Assembly (NCBI GenBank): GCA_017536445.1
Contig: JAFXHJ010000003.1
Coordinates: forward strand, 1-64,000
Length of the DNA stretch: 64,000 nucleotides
Direction: 5' to 3'
Source of the DNA: Clostridia bacterium
Lineage (GTDB): Bacteria; Bacillota; Clostridia; TANB77; CAG-465
In this document: positions 16,290 through 49,455 of the stretch, one piece after another
Numbering within the stretch: the first letter of the stretch is position 1
How the letters are laid out: every line of letters starts with the position of its first letter
Translations under genes and position numbers: made by a program
Notes under the pieces: generated by a model
What the model was told of the DNA's origin: nothing
Databases searched by the model: none
Seen by the model: the letters and a program-made list of their open reading frames with translations, nothing else

Positions 16290-17165
16290 CTAAGCATTGG
16301 TAGATAGCGATTTTTTGATATCATCTATTAATTCTTTTGTACTTGGATCTGACATATATTCTTTCGTAAGTTTGTCACATGCATGTATAACTGTTGTGTG
16401 ATCTTTTCCCCCGAAATCCTTCCCTATTTGTGGAAATGTCATATTAATAACTGTTCTGCATAAATACATTGCTATTTGTCTTGGATATGCAACGTTTTTA
16501 GAACGGTTTGAGCTTAATAAGTCAACTACTTTTATATTAAAGAATTTACTAACAACTTGCATTATTAATTTACTTGTTATAACTTTTGAACCTTTAACTA
16601 ATACTGATTCAATAGTACTATCTATAATTTCATCTGTTAATTCGTTATTTGTAAACGACGTATACGCTTTAAGTTTATTAAAAACCCCCTCAAGTTCTCT
16701 AATGTTAGAAGTTACTTGTGTTGCTATTTTTACTAAAACTGAATCGTCGATCATATATCTTTCTTTTTCTCTTCTTTTCTTTAGTATAGCAAGTCTTGTT
16801 TCATAATCTGGCGCTTGAACATCTACGGCAAGGCCCATATCGAAACGAGTCTTTAATCTTTCATCTAACATGTGTAGATCTTTTGGTGGTTTTTCACTTG
16901 TTAGTATTATTTGTTTTCCACTCTCAAACAATGTGTTAAAAGTATGGAAAAATTCCTCTTGGCATTTAGCCTTTCCTACTAGGAATTGGATATCATCTAT
17001 AAGTAAAACATCTATATTTCTATATTTATTTCTAAACGAAGCATTTTCTATCTTCTCGTTCATGATAGATGCTACAAGTTCATTAGTGAAACCTTCACCA
17101 GTTGTATATCTGATGTTAAGGTTCGGATGATTTTCTTGTATTGCATGACCTATTCCTTGCATCAA
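16290..17165 (-). CDS. dnaA: DnaA, AAA+ and DNA-binding part (second frame of a split dnaA)
   Basis: This frame holds DnaA domain III after Walker A and domain IV: Walker B LLIDDIQFLVGK, sensor and arginine-finger region RLKTRFDMGL, and the DNA-binding signature GGKDHTTVIHACDKL. The coding frame extends upstream of the ATG at 17165 to about 17195, where it reads IY-GGVGLGKTHLM, the Walker A motif. The N-terminal domains are in a different frame (17183-17704). The break is at a TA-dinucleotide tract, 17193-17206. Joined by loss of one AT unit, or by a -1 shift, the parts make one DnaA of normal length. Confidence 0.9.
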   Translation of the reverse strand: MMQGIGHAIQENHPNLNIRYTTGEGFTNELVASIMNEKIENASFRNKYRNIDVLLIDDIQFLVGKAKCQEEFFHTFNTLFESGKQIILTSEKPPKDLHMLDERLKTRFDMGLAVDVQAPDYETRLAILKKRREKERYMIDDSVLVKIATQVTSNIRELEGVFNKLKAYTSFTNNELTDEIIDSTIESVLVKGSKVITSKLIMQVVSKFFNIKVVDLLSSNRSKNVAYPRQIAMYLCRTVINMTFPQIGKDFGGKDHTTVIHACDKLTKEYMSDPSTKELIDDIKKSLSTNA

Positions 17166-17182
17166 GTGAGTTTTTCCTAGCC

Positions 17183-17704
17183 CTACTCCCCCATATATAT
17201 ATATAATGGGTTGTATACTTCGCCAGGATTTTCTGCAACGTTTTTAGCTGCTGCATATGCAAATCTGTTGTTTGATCCAACAATATAATTTTCAAAAGTA
17301 TATTTTGGATTTAATCCTATATCTATAGGACTAGAGTTAGTTTGATTTGCAATAGGTTGAGTTATATTTTCTACATTTTTAGTAGTTTCATCTTTGGTAT
17401 TGTTTGATATTTCGCTACTAATTGGAGTTATATCTTCTTCTTCGCTTTCGTTCATTTCTTTAGATTCAAAAGTTATAATATAACTTTTATTAGTCAGTAT
17501 TATTAAAGCGTTAGTTATAAGATCAATATATTTCTTATTGATAACTTCTATGTGGTACGATGAAGGAACTAAAAAACATATAGTATTTTCATCTGAAAGC
17601 CTTGGTACCATTACTTCTATAAAAGTTTTATATCCAATTGGAGAAATTTCTTCTTTAATTGCTTCTAAAGCTTGTTCCCAGATTTTTATAAAATCCGCAT
17701 TCAA
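17183..17704 (-). CDS. dnaA: DnaA, N-terminal domains (first frame of a split dnaA)
   Basis: A 173-residue frame with DnaA domain I (FIKIWEQALEAIKEEISPIGYKTF-like start), a Ser/Thr/Asn-rich domain II linker, and the start of the AAA+ domain, NPKYTFENYIVGSNNRFAYAAA. It ends YNPLYIYMGE-stop, exactly where YNPLYIYGGVGLGKT is expected. The tract reads TATATATATATATGGGGGAGTAG; one AT unit fewer restores the frame. A -1 slip on the GGGGG run would also restore it and add only one residue. dnaA is essential, so a sequencing or assembly error, or recoding, is more likely than loss. Confidence 0.9.
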   Translation of the reverse strand: MNADFIKIWEQALEAIKEEISPIGYKTFIEVMVPRLSDENTICFLVPSSYHIEVINKKYIDLITNALIILTNKSYIITFESKEMNESEEEDITPISSEISNNTKDETTKNVENITQPIANQTNSSPIDIGLNPKYTFENYIVGSNNRFAYAAAKNVAENPGEVYNPLYIYMGE

Positions 17705-41835: not shown

Positions 41836-42012
41836 GTGAATAACATGCTAAACAAAATAAATATGCTAAGAGAAAAATTAGACAAACAAATTTTAGAGGA
41901 AAGACCGTATGATGAGATCTTAGAGACAAGTAGAGAAATCGACAGACTTTTAGTAGAATTTTATAAAGATAGTACTCCTATTAAGGAGTCTAGATTATTT
42001 TTGGTCAAATAA
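41836..42012 (+). CDS. Spo0E-like sporulation regulatory protein
   Basis: A 58-residue protein: NMLREKLDKQILEERPYDEILETSREIDRLLVEFYK resembles the two-helix Spo0E family, whose signature SQxLD appears as SREID. Spo0E proteins dephosphorylate Spo0A-P and delay sporulation. The GTG at 41836 is 5 nt from GAGG; the ATG at 41845 is the alternative. A sigma-A promoter and a Spo0A box lie upstream, which would make a feedback loop. It converges with and overlaps the next gene by 18 bp. Too short to be found by most length cut-offs. Confidence 0.78.
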   Translation: MNNMLNKINMLREKLDKQILEERPYDEILETSREIDRLLVEFYKDSTPIKESRLFLVK

Positions 42013-42345
42013 GATGATAGCTAGTATTATTACTATGCTATAATCTATTTGGTTTTCTTTAAACATAAAAAACAATGTTATAAGTATTATCAAGTCATCT
42101 ATATTAATACTTATACCAAACAATTCGACTCTGTCATTTGTTATAGAAAACGCATTGCTTTTTAATGGTTCATTAATATTATTATAATTGTCGTTCAATT
42201 CGTAAGGAGTTCTGTTATTATTTATTATTTCGTTTGTACTTTGTTCGTTTGAGAAAGCTCCATAGACGTGATTCATAGAGCACATATTATTCATATATGC
42301 TCTATTTGGATAATAAAAGGGATTATTATAAAAAGGGTAATACAT
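41995..42345 (-). CDS. Unknown Asn/Tyr-rich protein with C-terminal membrane segments
   Basis: A 116-residue protein. The first 70 residues are rich in Asn, Tyr and Met (MYYPFYNNPFYYPNRAYMNN), like spore-coat proteins, and the last 40 form two hydrophobic stretches (LIILITLFFMFKEN and YSIVIILAIILF). It is the last of three tightly packed minus-strand genes. I do not recognise a family. Composition and the neighbouring Spo0E-like gene hint at sporulation, but that is inference. Confidence 0.7.
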   Translation of the reverse strand: MYYPFYNNPFYYPNRAYMNNMCSMNHVYGAFSNEQSTNEIINNNRTPYELNDNYNNINEPLKSNAFSITNDRVELFGISINIDDLIILITLFFMFKENQIDYSIVIILAIILFDQK

Positions 42346-42347
42346 TT

Positions 42348-42794
42348 TTAATCACGATCCTTGCCATTAAATATATTAAAAGCTTTCATTACACCTAAAA
42401 GTGCTATGTATGTATCAATGTTTTTTTGTCTAGTTTCTCTTAAGAAAGGCTTTAGTGAAGAAAGTAGATTTTGTCTGGGGTCAGGATTGTTTATTCCGCT
42501 TAATACATTTTGGAATTTCATAATTGAACCTATATCTAAATTCCCTAATGCACCAAGAGGTGATGAACTGTTCGTATTCGAGTTTGCATTCATAGAATTA
42601 GTGGTTTTATCAGTATTTAACATGTCTACAATTTTTGAAATGTCTAAATTGTTTAGATTTGGGCTATTTATATTCTGTTTGGAAATATTTGTTTCTCCTG
42701 AGTTTGATTCATTCAATTTGCTTTGAATAGATGTAACAATGTCTAAAATGGGATTAGAAGTTTGATTCTCAACTTCTTTTATATCGTTGTTCAT
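42348..42794 (-). CDS. Unknown Asn/Ser-rich protein
   Basis: A 148-residue protein with an Asn/Ser/Thr-rich, probably disordered N-terminal two thirds (NMNANSNTNSSSPLG-like) and a conserved-looking helical tail DPRQNLLSSLKPFLRETRQKNIDTYIALLGVMKAF. Tails of this kind occur in small Clostridia proteins of unknown role. Its ATG overlaps the stop of the upstream small gene (ATGA) and two bases separate it from the downstream gene. Confidence 0.75.
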   Translation of the reverse strand: MNNDIKEVENQTSNPILDIVTSIQSKLNESNSGETNISKQNINSPNLNNLDISKIVDMLNTDKTTNSMNANSNTNSSSPLGALGNLDIGSIMKFQNVLSGINNPDPRQNLLSSLKPFLRETRQKNIDTYIALLGVMKAFNIFNGKDRD

Positions 42795-43027: not shown

Positions 43028-43549
43028 GTGATAATTATTTTAGGTAAATTTATAACAAGAGATATACAGAGTATGTATGGTTTGGAAGAAATAAAAGACG
43101 ATGGGGTAATTGTAGTTAACAAAAGAGAAATCGCAATTTATAAAGTAAATCCTGTAAATATTATAGCGTGGGATTTAGAAACAAAACAAAAAATAATTTC
43201 GTCATATATAGCTACCTTAAGAGGCATGTCAGATACATTTCAAATAGTTGTATCAAAAGAGAAAAGTACGCTTAAACAAGATATTGAACAGTATAAGAAA
43301 AGATTGTTGGAAGTAGAAAATTATGGGCTTAAAATTGCGCTTAAGAAGTACATAGAATATCTTCAGAAGATAGAAAATGAGAATGGAATATATGAGGTAA
43401 AACATTACTTAATTGTTGAAGTGAAGAATAATGAATTAGATGAAAATATTAGAAATACTTTTTCTAATATGAATGAATTTGGTATAGATATTAGAAAAAT
43501 AACAAGGAAGGCAGAGGTGCAAAATGTACTTCGAAAGGCGATGGAGTGA
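43028..43549 (+). CDS. Unknown first gene of the VirB4-Tad operon
   Basis: A 173-residue soluble protein: IKDDGVIVVNKREIAIYKVNPVNI, then a helical middle and FGIDIRKITRKAEVQNVLRK. The pattern (a beta-rich start asking for an input such as YKVNPVNIIAW, followed by a long helical hairpin) recalls the N-terminal portion of conjugation VirB4/TraC ATPases, so it may be a split-off N-terminal domain of the next gene. The start is unclear: the GTG at 43028 is within AGAGGTGAT, which could instead serve an ATT at 43037. It overlaps the next gene by GTGA. Confidence 0.72.
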   Translation: MIIILGKFITRDIQSMYGLEEIKDDGVIVVNKREIAIYKVNPVNIIAWDLETKQKIISSYIATLRGMSDTFQIVVSKEKSTLKQDIEQYKKRLLEVENYGLKIALKKYIEYLQKIENENGIYEVKHYLIVEVKNNELDENIRNTFSNMNEFGIDIRKITRKAEVQNVLRKAME

Positions 43550-45240
43550 AAGGAAATAACTTAGAAATATTAAAAATATTACCTTCAAAAGTGGAGGAAA
43601 AGTACGATTGCGTTAAGATTGAGGATAAATACATATGTATTATGACTGTGATCTCGTATGAAAAAATTGTATTTTTAGAATTTTTAGAACAACTTCTTTT
43701 GGAGGAAGAAATAAGAATTTCATTTCATATATCTAAACAAAATGGCGGTGAATTCTTAAAAAAAATAACAAAGTTTGTTTCAGAAAGTGGAGCTGAGATT
43801 AGGACGATAAAAAAGAACCAAATAGATATAGAATTGTTAGAAAAAAATAAACGAGAAGCAGAAGATATAAAACGAGAAGTGCAAGTTAACAATGAAGAAA
43901 TATTTCTAGTTGAAACATATATTGAAATCATAGGAAAAAGTAAATTAGAGATAGAAAGCAAGTGTAATAAATTGAAGAATTTATTGTATTCTAAAGGGAT
44001 AATATTAAGACCAACTTTTTTTAAGCAGAAAGAAGGATATAAAGCAATGCTCCCATTTTTGTTAGAAAGAAAGTTGCTTTCAGAGTATACTTCAAATGTT
44101 TTTACTACATCTAGCTGTTCTATGTTGTTCCCATTTTTTGCAAAATATAACATCACAGATAGTGGGGTGCTTGTAGGTAGTGTAGATAATAACCTATTCA
44201 AACTATCTTTGCTTTCTAAAAACAATCTAAATCATAATATGTGCGTGTTTGGCAGTAGTGGAGTTGGAAAATCGTTTTTTGTAAAGTTATTAATATTAAG
44301 AAAAATGTACAAAAATATAAATCAGATAATAATAGATTCTGAGGGAGAATATGAAGTTTTAGTAAAAGAGTTTGGCGGAAGAACTTTAACGTTAGACACA
44401 TATAATCCGATGCAGATTGAAGAAAGTTTTGCCAAAAGAAATCAGGATTTTTTAGAACAAACTATATACATAACTAAAGAGTATGTGCAAAAAAAGTACA
44501 ATATTAAATATAGGGAATTAGAAATTGAGAATCATGTAAAAGATTTATTTAAAAAATATAAAATAACGAGCAATATGGAATCACTTTATGAGTATGGAAA
44601 TCGAGATAACATATACATTTCGCCTAAATATAAAAGTGAATTTCCAAAATTACACGAATTGTTAGAACTACTAGGAATTATAGATGAAACTTTAACCGAA
44701 TGTGAAATAATTCCAAAGACTAACCTTTATTATTTTTTATTAAAAGGTAAAACAGGCACACAAATACGAAAGGAAATGGAACTGTTTTTGCCAAGACTGA
44801 AAAGTATAATCACAGAAGAAACATTAATATATTTTGATGAAATTTGGAAGTTAATAAGCAACGACGATGATTACAATGTTATAGAGGAAATATATAACTT
44901 CTTTAAGACTTTAAGAAAGAGAAGAGCGGGTATAGTGGCAATTAGTCAAGATATAGGTGATTTGTTTAACATAGATAATGGAAATTTTGGGAAGAGTATA
45001 CTTAATAATTCTTATACTAAAGCGTTCTTCAAAATGAGTTATTCAGATATGGACAAGATGAACGAAGTAAATAATGGTGAAAATAACATAAGAAAAGAAA
45101 TATGCAAATTAATTAAAGGACAAGCTTACATTATGCAAGGTGATAATAAATTTGTTCTAGATGTAATAGCAAACGATTACGAAATAAATTTAATAGAAAA
45201 GGGGATGTCAGATGAAGAGAATATTAATAGCAATGGATAA
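43546..45240 (+). CDS. VirB4/TraC-like secretion ATPase
   Basis: A 564-residue protein. Walker A is GSSGVGKSFFVKLL (about 235-248), followed by QIIIDSEGEYEVLVKEFGG, a typical VirB4/TraC segment, Walker B TLIYFDEIWKLI (about 426-437) and the arginine-rich motif LRKRRAGIVAISQDIGDLF. Such ATPases power conjugation and type IV secretion. No relaxase, coupling protein or VirB6-like gene is near. It is coupled by GTGA to the upstream gene and overlaps the TadZ-like gene by 29 nt, tying it to the Tad-type genes. Confidence 0.88.
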   Translation: MKGNNLEILKILPSKVEEKYDCVKIEDKYICIMTVISYEKIVFLEFLEQLLLEEEIRISFHISKQNGGEFLKKITKFVSESGAEIRTIKKNQIDIELLEKNKREAEDIKREVQVNNEEIFLVETYIEIIGKSKLEIESKCNKLKNLLYSKGIILRPTFFKQKEGYKAMLPFLLERKLLSEYTSNVFTTSSCSMLFPFFAKYNITDSGVLVGSVDNNLFKLSLLSKNNLNHNMCVFGSSGVGKSFFVKLLILRKMYKNINQIIIDSEGEYEVLVKEFGGRTLTLDTYNPMQIEESFAKRNQDFLEQTIYITKEYVQKKYNIKYRELEIENHVKDLFKKYKITSNMESLYEYGNRDNIYISPKYKSEFPKLHELLELLGIIDETLTECEIIPKTNLYYFLLKGKTGTQIRKEMELFLPRLKSIITEETLIYFDEIWKLISNDDDYNVIEEIYNFFKTLRKRRAGIVAISQDIGDLFNIDNGNFGKSILNNSYTKAFFKMSYSDMDKMNEVNNGENNIRKEICKLIKGQAYIMQGDNKFVLDVIANDYEINLIEKGMSDEENINSNG

Positions 45241-46438
45241 CGAAGTGCTTTTAAGTCAAATTAAAAAGTGCGGGAAGTATCTTGTTTATGGGTACGATAT
45301 AGATACAAAGGAAAATGTAATAGAGTATTTAAAGAAAAACGATGTAGATGTTTTGATAACAAAAGAAAGTTTATCAGGAAATATGGATTTTAAAACATAT
45401 ATAAAAGAAATAAGCAAATCACAAAGCGGGGTGAAGGTAATAATTGCAGTAAATACTCTGGTAGAAGAAGTTAAAGGTTTTTTACTTGCAAATAATGTAA
45501 ATAATATAATTGAAGGCGAGTGTATAAGTTTTAGTAAAATAATAGAGATGATAGATTCAAAGCAAAATATTATAGAAACATTGCAAGTTAAACAATATGG
45601 GAAAGTTAGAGATGATACGAACATAATAACAAAACAAAAGATTTGTGTGTTTGGCACGAGTGGCGCTGGTAAATCTTATGTTGCGAGTTTACTTGCACAT
45701 CATATAAGTAAGAAGTATAAATTAAACACTCTATTAATAGATATGGATTTGCAAAATGCAGCAATAGATATATATAACAATTTAATGTATGCTCCAAATT
45801 CTCTTGGATGTCTTATGGAAGAGATAGATAATGACTCTTTTAATAGAGAAGTACTTTTAGATTATACAAGTAAGGGCGAAAAAAACGGGAAGTTATCTTT
45901 TTTAACAAACAATGTAGGTGTATATGAATGTCAAAATCGATTATCTAAAGACTATTATGAAAAATTGTATGAAGAGGCAGAAAAAAACTATGATGTTGTG
46001 ATATTAGATATGCCGTCTGCACCTTTTCTAGATGTAGTACCATTTTCTATGCTTAAAGCAGATAAAATAGTGTTCGTTCTTAATCCTAATTTTATAAGTA
46101 TAAGACAAGCAGTAAAGTACATAGATTTAATGGTTAATGTATGGCAAATAGATAAGAACAAGATATACTTAATAATTAACAAAATAGGAAAAGATTCGTT
46201 AACTGCGAAGCAAATATCAGCGATTCTAAAAGATTATACAATTGTTCTTAAAATAGATGAATCTAGAGAAGTAGAAAAAGTGATAAACGGAATAACAAAT
46301 ATCACTGGTGACGAGATACTAGATACGGAGGAGTTTTTAAAAATGTTAAACATATATAATTTAGAAGAGATAGAGGAGAAAAAACATGGTCATAAATGCA
46401 TACAAAACCGTTTTAGCAGAAAAGAACCGAGACAATAA
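45212..46438 (+). CDS. TadZ/CpaE-like MinD-family ATPase
   Basis: A 408-residue protein with a receiver-like N-terminal domain (RILIAMDNEVLLSQIKK, DVDVLITKES) and a ParA/MinD-type ATPase with the P-loop FGTSGAGKSYVASLLAHHI (about 147-160), LLIDMDLQNAAIDIYN and VVILDMPSAPFLD. The P-loop reads GTSGAGKS, not the usual KGGxGKT. CpaE/TadZ proteins place Tad pili at a cell site. The start overlaps the VirB4-like gene and the end overlaps the CpaF-like gene by 53 nt. Confidence 0.87.
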   Translation: MKRILIAMDNEVLLSQIKKCGKYLVYGYDIDTKENVIEYLKKNDVDVLITKESLSGNMDFKTYIKEISKSQSGVKVIIAVNTLVEEVKGFLLANNVNNIIEGECISFSKIIEMIDSKQNIIETLQVKQYGKVRDDTNIITKQKICVFGTSGAGKSYVASLLAHHISKKYKLNTLLIDMDLQNAAIDIYNNLMYAPNSLGCLMEEIDNDSFNREVLLDYTSKGEKNGKLSFLTNNVGVYECQNRLSKDYYEKLYEEAEKNYDVVILDMPSAPFLDVVPFSMLKADKIVFVLNPNFISIRQAVKYIDLMVNVWQIDKNKIYLIINKIGKDSLTAKQISAILKDYTIVLKIDESREVEKVINGITNITGDEILDTEEFLKMLNIYNLEEIEEKKHGHKCIQNRFSRKEPRQ

Positions 46439-47561
46439 GGAACAAAAAAGAGATATAATCAAGCATATTACAAAGAGATTGTTGGAAGAAGAACTCGAAA
46501 CAATAGAAAGAAGAAATATAGAGAAACTTACAAAAAAGATCGAATGGATATTAGTAAATAAATATGAAATAGTAGAAGAAAAAAATGTAAATGATTATAT
46601 TAAAGAAGTGCTAGATAAAATATATGGATATGGAATTCTAGAAAAGTATTTGAATGATGGAATAACATCGGATATTAGGGCGGTGGCTTTTAATAATATA
46701 TATGTAAAACAAAAAGGTAATTGGATAAAAACTGAAGAGACTTTTGCAAATGAAGAAGAATTTAACGAGTATATTAGATTTTGCGCACTCAAGAATAATT
46801 ATAATATAAATAATGAAAATCCAATAGGGGTATTTAGTGATAGGAAAAATGGCCTTAGAATTGAAGCGGGAATAGAACCTGTTAATGTGAATAATGCTAA
46901 TTTAGTAATAAGAATTCACAAAAACGAAACTCCAAAAAGTTTAGAGCAACTTTTTGAAGCATATCATATGTTAGATAAGTATTCATATGAAGTTATAAAG
47001 GATGGTACAAAAAGAATGGCAAATATATTAATTTGTGGGAAAGGTGGAAGTGGAAAAACCACTCTTTTAAGAGCGATAATAAACACATTGCCAGAAAATA
47101 TAGCGATAAATACTAATGAAGAAACGGCAGAATTATATATTGAAAATAGAAATATTATACAAAGAGAATGCTTGTTAACTAGAGTAGAAGATAAAAATGT
47201 CGATTTAGAAAAATTATCAAGGAACTCTTTGGTGATGTCAAATGATGTTATTGTAATAGGAGAACTTAAAGGAAAAGAAGCAAATTCTTTTTTTGATGCG
47301 ATTTCAACTGGACATATGGGAATAGCCACCGTTCATTCGGATTCTACTAAGAATGCAATAGATAGAATAATAACGTTGATTAGAAAAGACGTGAAAGCTT
47401 CTCAATATACAGACAGATTTCTAAGAAGATTTTTAGCGGGGACTATAGATTATATAATATTAGTAAAAGATTTTCAGGTTAAAGAAGTAGCTGCAGTTAA
47501 GTATGATGAAGAAAAAGATGTGTTAAATGTTATTAATGTATATAGAAAGGCGAGAAAATGA
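46386..47561 (+). CDS. CpaF/TadA-type secretion ATPase
   Basis: A 391-residue GspE/VirB11-superfamily ATPase. The family segment YGILEKYLNDGITSDI and RIEAGIEPVNVNNANLVIRIHK lead to Walker A CGKGGSGKTTLLRAI (about 217-230), the Asp-box-like TNEETAELY, Walker B DVIVIGELKGKEA and the His box STGHMGIATVHSDS. It would drive assembly or secretion with the TadB-like protein. Start at the ATG after GAGGAG despite the 53-nt overlap. Ends in ATGA overlap with the next gene. Confidence 0.92.
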   Translation: MVINAYKTVLAEKNRDNKEQKRDIIKHITKRLLEEELETIERRNIEKLTKKIEWILVNKYEIVEEKNVNDYIKEVLDKIYGYGILEKYLNDGITSDIRAVAFNNIYVKQKGNWIKTEETFANEEEFNEYIRFCALKNNYNINNENPIGVFSDRKNGLRIEAGIEPVNVNNANLVIRIHKNETPKSLEQLFEAYHMLDKYSYEVIKDGTKRMANILICGKGGSGKTTLLRAIINTLPENIAINTNEETAELYIENRNIIQRECLLTRVEDKNVDLEKLSRNSLVMSNDVIVIGELKGKEANSFFDAISTGHMGIATVHSDSTKNAIDRIITLIRKDVKASQYTDRFLRRFLAGTIDYIILVKDFQVKEVAAVKYDEEKDVLNVINVYRKARK

Positions 47562-48424
47562 AGATATGTATATTCTTACTAATATTTTTTCTAGTGAACA
47601 TTTTAATAGAATGGTCAAAAAAAGATTATATAAATCCATTAATAATATTTAAGCAAAGTAAAATAGCGCGATTAATAACAGATAAGGTAAATATTCTTTA
47701 TGACAAGAAAATAATCAATTTTAACAAAAAGTATTTAACAGTGTTAAAAATAACAACAATTAGCTTCGTATTATATTTAATAAGTATCATTATACTATAT
47801 TCGTATATAAAAGTTTTAAGTACGTCAATGATTTTATCTATACCATTTTTAATATCACCGTTAATTATATCTAAAATTTTAATCGAAAGAAATAAACAAA
47901 TAATCTCTAAACAAATTCCATTCTATGCTATAAATATAAAGAACCAAATAAAGGATGAAAACAATATAATACAAGCTATAAAAAGAGCAAGAGTAGAAGA
48001 ACCGCTTGCTAGACATATTAATGAGTTTTTAACTAGTGTATTTAACGGTGCGAATGTTATTAGCTCTTTTAACAAATTAAAGCAAGATGTAGATGTAAAA
48101 GACTTTACAGAGCTTATAAATTCGTTTGAAGATTGCTATAAAAATGGTGGAGATTTTGTTCGAGTGTTGGAAAAATATATTATTATAAATACAAAAGAGA
48201 GACTGCAAAAAACAGAAATGGAGGAGAAGGCATTTTCGTCAATTGTAACTTTGGTTGTTATGACATTTTTAAACATATTAGTAATAATAACATTTGTGTT
48301 TGGGAATGCAGAATATGCAAATATTGTAAGAGGTACAAATGCAGGACGAGCAATATTAAATTTAAATGCAATAACGTATATGCTAACTTCAATAATAATT
48401 TTTAGAGTATATAAGGAGGAATAG
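47558..48424 (+). CDS. TadB-like membrane protein (GspF domain)
   Basis: A 288-residue protein with membrane segments at about residues 1-15, 65-105 (two), 228-248 and 262-284, and a cytoplasmic GspF-like domain between (NQIKDENNIIQAIKRARVEEPLARHINEF, NGANVISSFNKL). In Tad systems TadB and TadC form the inner-membrane platform. Only one such protein is present here. It is coupled to the ATPase gene by ATGA. Confidence 0.82.
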   Translation: MKICIFLLIFFLVNILIEWSKKDYINPLIIFKQSKIARLITDKVNILYDKKIINFNKKYLTVLKITTISFVLYLISIIILYSYIKVLSTSMILSIPFLISPLIISKILIERNKQIISKQIPFYAINIKNQIKDENNIIQAIKRARVEEPLARHINEFLTSVFNGANVISSFNKLKQDVDVKDFTELINSFEDCYKNGGDFVRVLEKYIIINTKERLQKTEMEEKAFSSIVTLVVMTFLNILVIITFVFGNAEYANIVRGTNAGRAILNLNAITYMLTSIIIFRVYKEE

Positions 48425-48425
48425 A

Positions 48426-49166
48426 ATGAGCTTAGATATGGAAATAAGTGAAACAATAAATAGATTAAGAGATAATGTTTTGGAATTAGATTTAGATCAT
48501 CGATTAGACAATTTAAAATTAGATTTACAAAATATTTCGGAAAGAGCTTTAGAAAAGTCAATGAACTATATAATAAAATCAATGCCTGTGCCAGACGCTA
48601 TAAAAGATGTTTTGAAAGGTGTAAAAGAATCAATAAAAACAAAAACTTTAAAAGAAGTTGTAGAAACGGCTGTAAATAGTAGTGTAAGAGAGGGGCTAGA
48701 GATAGTAGGAGTTTCTAAAACTAACATAAGCACATTAAAGGATGTGAAAGATTTCGCTTTTAAAGGTGGATTGGCAATGCTGTTGAAATGTGGTTTGCAG
48801 CTGGTTGAAAGAAAATATCTTAAAAATAATATAGTAAGTGATGCTATATATAGATTTTTTGGAAAAGTCAATGAATATATACTGAGTAATGAATTTGTAA
48901 AAAAGATAAATTCTATGGTAGACAAGCTGTCAGCAAAAAAAGATGAATATATGAAAAAATGTGATAACTGGTACGAGGCCTATACTAAGTTGGATATAAA
49001 AAATATAAATAAGCTGTCAGAAGAACTTGGGACTAATAGATATATAACGTCAAGGTATGAAGACTGTGATAGAGAAAATAGGATAATACAAAATATGACT
49101 AAAATGGTAAATGCCAAAAAAAGCATATTATCTATAGAACAACAAAAACTATGCGAAGCAATATAA
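48426..49166 (+). CDS. Unknown last gene of the VirB4-Tad operon
   Basis: A 246-residue mostly helical protein: LDMEISETINRLRDNVLELD, a possible amphipathic middle (DVKDFAFKGGLAMLLKCGLQLVERKYL) and a charged tail NAKKSILSIEQQKLCEAI. No signal peptide, pilin motif or domain I recognise. It starts one base after the TadB-like gene, so it is part of the operon and probably belongs to the system, either as a substrate, adaptor or structural subunit. Confidence 0.75.
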   Translation: MSLDMEISETINRLRDNVLELDLDHRLDNLKLDLQNISERALEKSMNYIIKSMPVPDAIKDVLKGVKESIKTKTLKEVVETAVNSSVREGLEIVGVSKTNISTLKDVKDFAFKGGLAMLLKCGLQLVERKYLKNNIVSDAIYRFFGKVNEYILSNEFVKKINSMVDKLSAKKDEYMKKCDNWYEAYTKLDIKNINKLSEELGTNRYITSRYEDCDRENRIIQNMTKMVNAKKSILSIEQQKLCEAI

Positions 49167-49204: not shown

Positions 49205-49224
49205 GAGGCTGGGAGAGGATGTTT

Positions 49225-49455
49225 ATGTCTAAAATGAAGGAAGTTCCAAACGCAAAAGCAAAGCTAATAGGAATGTTAATATCTGTGCTATTAATGATAT
49301 TTACAGTTACACAAACATATTACTTAGCAATGTATACATTAGGGCAGGAAATATCCGAAGACAAGATGGCGATATACAAATGGGTTGTGAAGCTTGTGAA
49401 TTATGAAGATAATAACGAACAAGTTGAGCAAGACGCTTATCAAGTTTCAGAGTAG
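49225..49455 (+). CDS. Small single-pass membrane protein
   Basis: A 76-residue protein with one membrane segment (about residues 13-37, IGMLISVLLMIFTVTQTYYLAM) and an acidic tail. I do not recognise it. The ATG at 49225 follows GAGAGG by 6 nt; the ATG at 49219 is too close to that site. A ylbF-family gene follows after 9 bp. Confidence 0.75.
   Translation: MSKMKEVPNAKAKLIGMLISVLLMIFTVTQTYYLAMYTLGQEISEDKMAIYKWVVKLVNYEDNNEQVEQDAYQVSE

Follow-up and report, generated by a model that had tools for sequence, protein, structure and literature searches.

The six-gene operon analysed here (genes A to F) quite probably represents one half of a type IV secretion system (T4SS) that has been domesticated. 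As far as gene sequences can tell, an order of uncultured gut Clostridia apparently keeps a vertically inherited, relaxase-less T4SS equipped with a Tad-type motor pair. Because no gene for transfer initiation was seen beside either half, the system looks like a captured conjugation apparatus that serves a purpose of its host.

A split VirB4 and Tad-type genes in one operon

The earlier note on the window (the whole stretch of 64,000 nucleotides that was analysed) had described six compact plus-strand genes. Their coordinates and overlaps were all confirmed from the sequence, the successive intergenic spacings being -4, -29, -53, -4 and +1 nt. The arrangement is not a matter of chance, since the same gene order recurs in other families and in the window's own family, in which all 21 loci read have the order A-B-C-(D-E)-F. 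Comparison with the nearest relative (G035) showed that the differences lie mostly at third codon positions in each of the six genes. A promoter and terminator scan of the operon was uninformative, returning 46 promoter-like sites compared with 42.5 in shuffled sequences.

The first two genes encode one VirB4 divided over two proteins. In profile scans, gene A (43028..43549), which has a GTG start codon, matches positions 110-273 of the VirB4 model NF045975 (E 2.4e-8), and gene B (43546..45240; 564 aa) picks up the same model at positions 300-665 (E 8.3e-42). The family profile of B also retrieved the VirB4-like structure 4ag5 from the PDB with 162 bits, and A and B are adjacent throughout the order in the loci read, which belong to several families. 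A is the N-terminal part, of the TrsD type, and B the remainder; TrsD is a relative of the VirB4 N-terminal part (PMC12102498), and a split into TrsD and VirB4 is already known from staphylococcal plasmids and Patescibacteria. The VirB4 ATPase expected of a monoderm (FATA-type) T4SS is thus represented by A-B.

The next three genes resemble motor parts of Tad systems. Gene C (45212..46438) encodes a TadZ/ParA-type ATPase with the P-loop GTSGAGKS; it matches Pfam CbiA (E 2.9e-8), and its family profile retrieves the ParA/MinD structures 4v03 and 3ea0. Gene D (46386..47561) encodes an ATPase of the CpaF/VirB11 family (T2SSE, E 3.3e-25), which scores 121.7 bits with the VirB11 model TIGR02788 versus 105.9 bits with the TadA model TIGR03819, and whose family profile gives 113 bits with CpaF structures and 99 bits with Cag-alpha/VirB11. 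P-loops are present in B, C and D and are kept in all relatives aligned, the letters of the C motif being variable in one subclade. Gene E (47558..48424) encodes a GspF/TadB-like membrane protein with four hydrophobic segments, as judged by hydrophobicity; its GspF match is weak (T2SSF, E 0.0042, under the Pfam cutoff), and its alignment with GspF of pVpro, the plasmid of Vallitalea pronyensis, has E 5e-28. C, D and E therefore stand for the TadZ, CpaF/TadA and, weakly, TadB components of a Tad pilus. A second GspF (TadC), a Flp-type pilin and a secretin or CpaB were not recognised at the locus, with a lone GspF and no Flp-type gene in the 21 family loci, and no prepilin peptidase gene was recognised at the A-F locus.

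Nine of the 21 family loci have both D and E, and the other 12 have neither. They are also missing from all 20 loci of family f3 that contain B, and both occur in five of six f5 loci, the sixth of which ends at a contig edge. The motor pair appears to have been lost repeatedly, always together. This joint retention or loss, and the resemblance of C, D and E to TadZ, CpaF and TadB, favour the earlier note's view that the six proteins by themselves make up a membrane machine, either Tad-like or concerned with sporulation. We nevertheless regard that view as very unlikely, because A, B and F mostly stay where D and E are absent, because sister families place VirD4-, VirB2-, VirB6- and PrgI-like genes beside the operon, and because a Flp-type pilin and a prepilin peptidase were unrecognised at the locus. 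No link with sporulation was found: the only related genes seen, SpoIIIAA (just under the cutoff) and a SpoVB-like gene, are unconnected with the operon.

Gene F (48426..49166) encodes an all-helical protein that lacks a transmembrane segment. Pfam and other profile scans returned no family above cutoff for F, and although AlphaFold predicts its structure with a pLDDT of 87, it found no match in the PDB at E <= 0.001. Identification as VirB8 or as a known fold was rejected, given the lack of both a hydrophobic segment and a PDB match. Of the order's 191 genomes, 66 yielded F, and a draw of 291 genomes from the whole class yielded it in only four, each from this same order. The distribution supports the view of F as a system-specific part, as had been proposed; of the two proteins originally put forward as unknown and specific, F has kept that status, and A has lost it through its match to the VirB4 model.

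The second half and its chromosomal surroundings

According to the earlier note, neither the Tad nor the T4SS gene set was complete and a coupling protein was lacking. This is true of the window and not of the genome: the apparent absence reflects the limit of the window, because a search of the window's own genome (G000) with second-half profiles from family f3 located a run of six genes with VirD4 at its head (G000:C8). VirD4 (89244-91097, 617 aa) has PF10412 and PF12696 above cutoff, with TrwB_AAD_bind at 1e-12 and TraG-D_C at 4e-10. It is followed by a VirB2-like gene (91098-91448; TrbC 2.2e-4 and T4SS_pilin 4.1e-4, both under the Pfam cutoffs), a VirB6-like gene (91448-92272; TrbL_4 3.9e-5, hhalign 88.8% versus the sister elements) and a PrgI/VirB3-like gene (92259-92570; hhalign 97%, E 1e-10, versus the PrgI-like genes of the sister elements), the single-sequence Pfam scores of the latter two being under cutoff. 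The run ends with a DnaD-like (92619-93596) and a DnaI-like gene (93605-94618). The putative VirB2 is the weakest identification of this half: hhalign gave a probability of 1.4% against the VirB2 of the sister elements, which amounts to no alignment, and the identification draws support from where the gene lies, between VirD4 and VirB6.

Thus, the VirB3/PrgI and VirB6 translocon proteins and the VirD4 coupling protein of a T4SS are all encoded in the same genome, and the machine can no longer be called minimal, since its channel and coupling genes are located on the same chromosome. No VirB8 and no dedicated VirB1-type wall hydrolase were recognised in the two loci, and, among the ORFs profiled in the loci read, no relaxase or mobility gene was recognised around A-F or the G000:C8 run.

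The two halves lie closer together in other families. In f3, the operon is placed between gyrB and gyrA, and beyond gyrA, on the opposite strand, there are VirD4-, VirB2-, VirB6- and PrgI-like genes and then DnaD- and DnaI-like ones. In an f5 genome (L205) the halves adjoin, with VirD4-VirB2-VirB6-PrgI-DnaD-DnaI facing gyrA-F-E-D-C-B-A. The window itself carries dnaA, dnaN, recF and gyrB at 11.8-17.7 kb and parA/parB at 25.6-27.3 kb, which places A-F about 25 kb from dnaA. The dnaD- and dnaI-like primosome genes (L200:12620-14619, +) trail VirD4-VirB2-VirB6-PrgI in nearly all loci read, order-wide, and the association between the T4SS and replication genes appears to be a lasting one.

Several other features of the surroundings were observed. 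In the 21 family loci, the operon is preceded by the divergent genes m1 and m2 (42348-42794 and 41995-42345, minus strand), and in most of these loci a YlbF gene lies downstream. Both m1 and m2 belong to no known family and are kept in this position in nearly all family genomes, and the terminus of m1 has a conserved LLSLKPFLRKSRQDKINEY-like motif. A 78-aa membrane protein encoded at 49219-49455 (+) matches PGA_cap-domain proteins of about 430 aa found at the same site in relatives, and looks like a shortened remnant. The window's dnaA (16290-17704, -) is read as two ORFs of 173 and 291 aa, owing to a frameshift in a TA-repeat run at about 17190; as dnaA is essential, this is probably a sequence error.

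Distribution and descent in the order

The genomes are metagenome-assembled, and gaps may account for some of the absences (G031, G032 and G035). A match to B at E <= 0.001 was found in all 36 genomes of the family, and a close copy of the A-F locus in 35 of them, the exception being G034, where only a distant paralog and part of F were found. In G034 the A-F half has been lost naturally: VirD4-VirB2-VirB6-PrgI are retained, B is gone, and F is reduced to a fragment that contains a stop (G034:C8:45284-45454). Among the 191 genomes of the order, VirB4 was found in 155 and VirB2 in 157, with both in 140 and neither in 19. This association is significant when kinship is ignored (Fisher p 5e-8), and it could be inflated by assembly gaps, because many genomes have the two loci close to the origin. 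Among the weaker VirB4 matches, a few may come from copies carried on elements.

In a VirB4 tree obtained by a quick search, with SH-aLRT support only, families f1, f3 and f5 each formed a single clade (100, 100 and 96, respectively), all sequences of the order formed one clade (97), and 14 VirB4s of conjugative elements were the sister group of that clade (99). Capture with vertical descent afterwards would be expected to give this pattern, and VirB4 has descended vertically within the order. We infer that the system derives from a clostridial conjugative element and that its relaxase was then lost.

The closest VirB4 relatives outside the order are located in loci resembling integrative conjugative elements (ICEs), with VirD4, TrbL and NlpC/P60 genes, which raises the question of whether A-F belongs to an ICE that is decaying or still mobile. 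This is extremely unlikely. The ORFs are intact, with changes biased to third positions; there is one locus per genome, and its presence is order-wide; the chromosomal neighbours (gyrA, dnaD-dnaI and M16 peptidases) are fixed; and the VirB4 tree tracks the families. A degraded ICE was rejected on these grounds together with the conservation of the locus. The earlier proposal of a chromosomally fixed membrane machine in which a VirB4 ATPase is combined with motor parts of the Tad type is borne out by the conserved gene order. The locus is not the remnant of a degraded element, and the link between VirB4 and the Tad genes, whose absence would have argued against the proposal, proved to be conserved.

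Possible use and relation to known systems

If A-F and the second half act as one domesticated T4SS, A-B hexamers would dock on PrgI and VirB6, forming the translocon with them, and would pull out VirB2 subunits for assembly into a short fibre on the cell surface. C could position the machine within the cell, D-E could power movement of the fibre or of the platform where they are retained, and VirD4 would supply the substrate where it is retained. VirD4 is gone from four related genomes (G005, G014, G015 and G026), which have a different gene ahead of VirB2 and retain VirB2, VirB6 and PrgI as well as B-C-F, so that VirD4-dependent export is unlikely to be the core task there. The VirD4-less subclade would suit a role in contact or in DNA import, as in the archaeal Ced/Ted systems, which import DNA (PMC9905601).

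By analogy with Ced/Ted, the most likely use may be to exchange or import cellular DNA in a contact-dependent way, a suggestion that we make tentatively. Ced/Ted is a domesticated, chromosomal VirB2/VirB4/VirB6 set without a relaxase, which the genes described here appear to resemble, and a ParA-like gene lies near ted, comparable to C (PMC9905601). Of such a set, VirB4, VirB6 and the chromosomal location are present here, VirB2 lies under the Pfam cutoffs, and the relaxase was judged from the loci read. Ced differs in being archaeal and in consisting of four proteins, with neither VirD4 nor a CpaF/GspF pair (PMC9905601); its DNA transfer is known from experiments, whereas the clostridial system is known from genes alone. 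It is conceivable, though doubtful, that the latter is a bacterial counterpart of Ced/Ted, that is, a captured apparatus that is tied to a replication-gene cluster, has a Tad-type motor and exchanges or imports chromosomal DNA between cells. The presence of ComEC in all 20 genomes tested fits import, but the genome of the window also has PilB and PilT (named by size and position), which with ComEC offer an alternative route for DNA uptake, and import is therefore only the leading guess. With all three present, the idea that the T4SS replaced a lost competence pilus is unsupported.

Alternatively, a relaxase-less T4SS could act on a partner cell by contact-dependent protein delivery or by attachment; here the identity as a T4SS is shared and the use differs. 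We consider this possible, if somewhat unlikely when taken by itself, and action on a partner cell, of the kind proposed for Patescibacteria, is nearly as likely as DNA import. The MPF-FATA T4SSs of Patescibacteria are likewise chromosomal, mostly relaxase-less and often near oriC or dnaA/dnaN, and they share TrsD with VirB4, PrgI, VirB6 and VirB2-like pilins (PMC12102498). The small genomes of the order, about 0.9-2.2 Mb, also agree with such a role. Against protein delivery stands the loss, in the subclade, of VirD4, the usual docking part for effectors. Patescibacteria belong to another phylum, F is unknown there, and CpaF and TadB are unmentioned in the text of PMC12102498; in the order studied here, by contrast, the genes flank gyrA and precede dnaD-dnaI.

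A second T4SS-like locus, at G000:C18 (L220:5260-17901, +), contains three VirB2-like pilins in tandem plus a longer relative, a PrgI-like gene, a VirB4 divided between two genes (523 and 629 aa), a large protein at the VirB6 position and a 1024-aa protein. The six genomes examined, which represent three families, all have this gene set. With its tandem pilins, PrgI, split VirB4 and VirB6-like genes it resembles the Patescibacteria system, which lends some weight to action on partner cells.

The combination of VirB4 and Tad genes is in itself not as odd as first thought, because the plasmid pVpro (NZ_CP058650) has PrgI, a gene at the TrsD position with VirB4, a VirB6-like gene, TadZ/ParA, CpaF and GspF in one run. 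It differs in being plasmid-borne and in having a second GspF, Flp- and TadE-like proteins, a SAF/CpaB-type gene, an M23 peptidase and a small membrane protein (the Flp-, TadE- and CpaB-like names come from reading the sequence and from the SAF annotation of the record), and its VirB4 branches off distantly in the tree. The ICE-like T4SSs of other Clostridia share with the order a VirB4 that is the sister group of B, and homologous PrgI and VirB6, but they carry VirD4, NlpC/P60 and mobile-element cargo, and D, E and F are absent beside their VirB4. What is new is the occurrence of the VirB4-Tad mix in a fixed chromosomal form that lacks the Tad pilin set.

A 2025 review states that VirB11 homologs are universally absent from Gram-positive T4SSs, and that VirB2 occurs among these only in Patescibacteria (PMC12857230). 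In contrast, the order of Clostridia analysed here has a VirB2-like gene and, in part of its members, an ATPase of the CpaF/VirB11 family that adjoins VirB4 at a near-origin chromosomal site. With its parts named, including F and the natural versions without VirD4 or without D and E, a separate bacterial domestication of conjugation machinery becomes testable.
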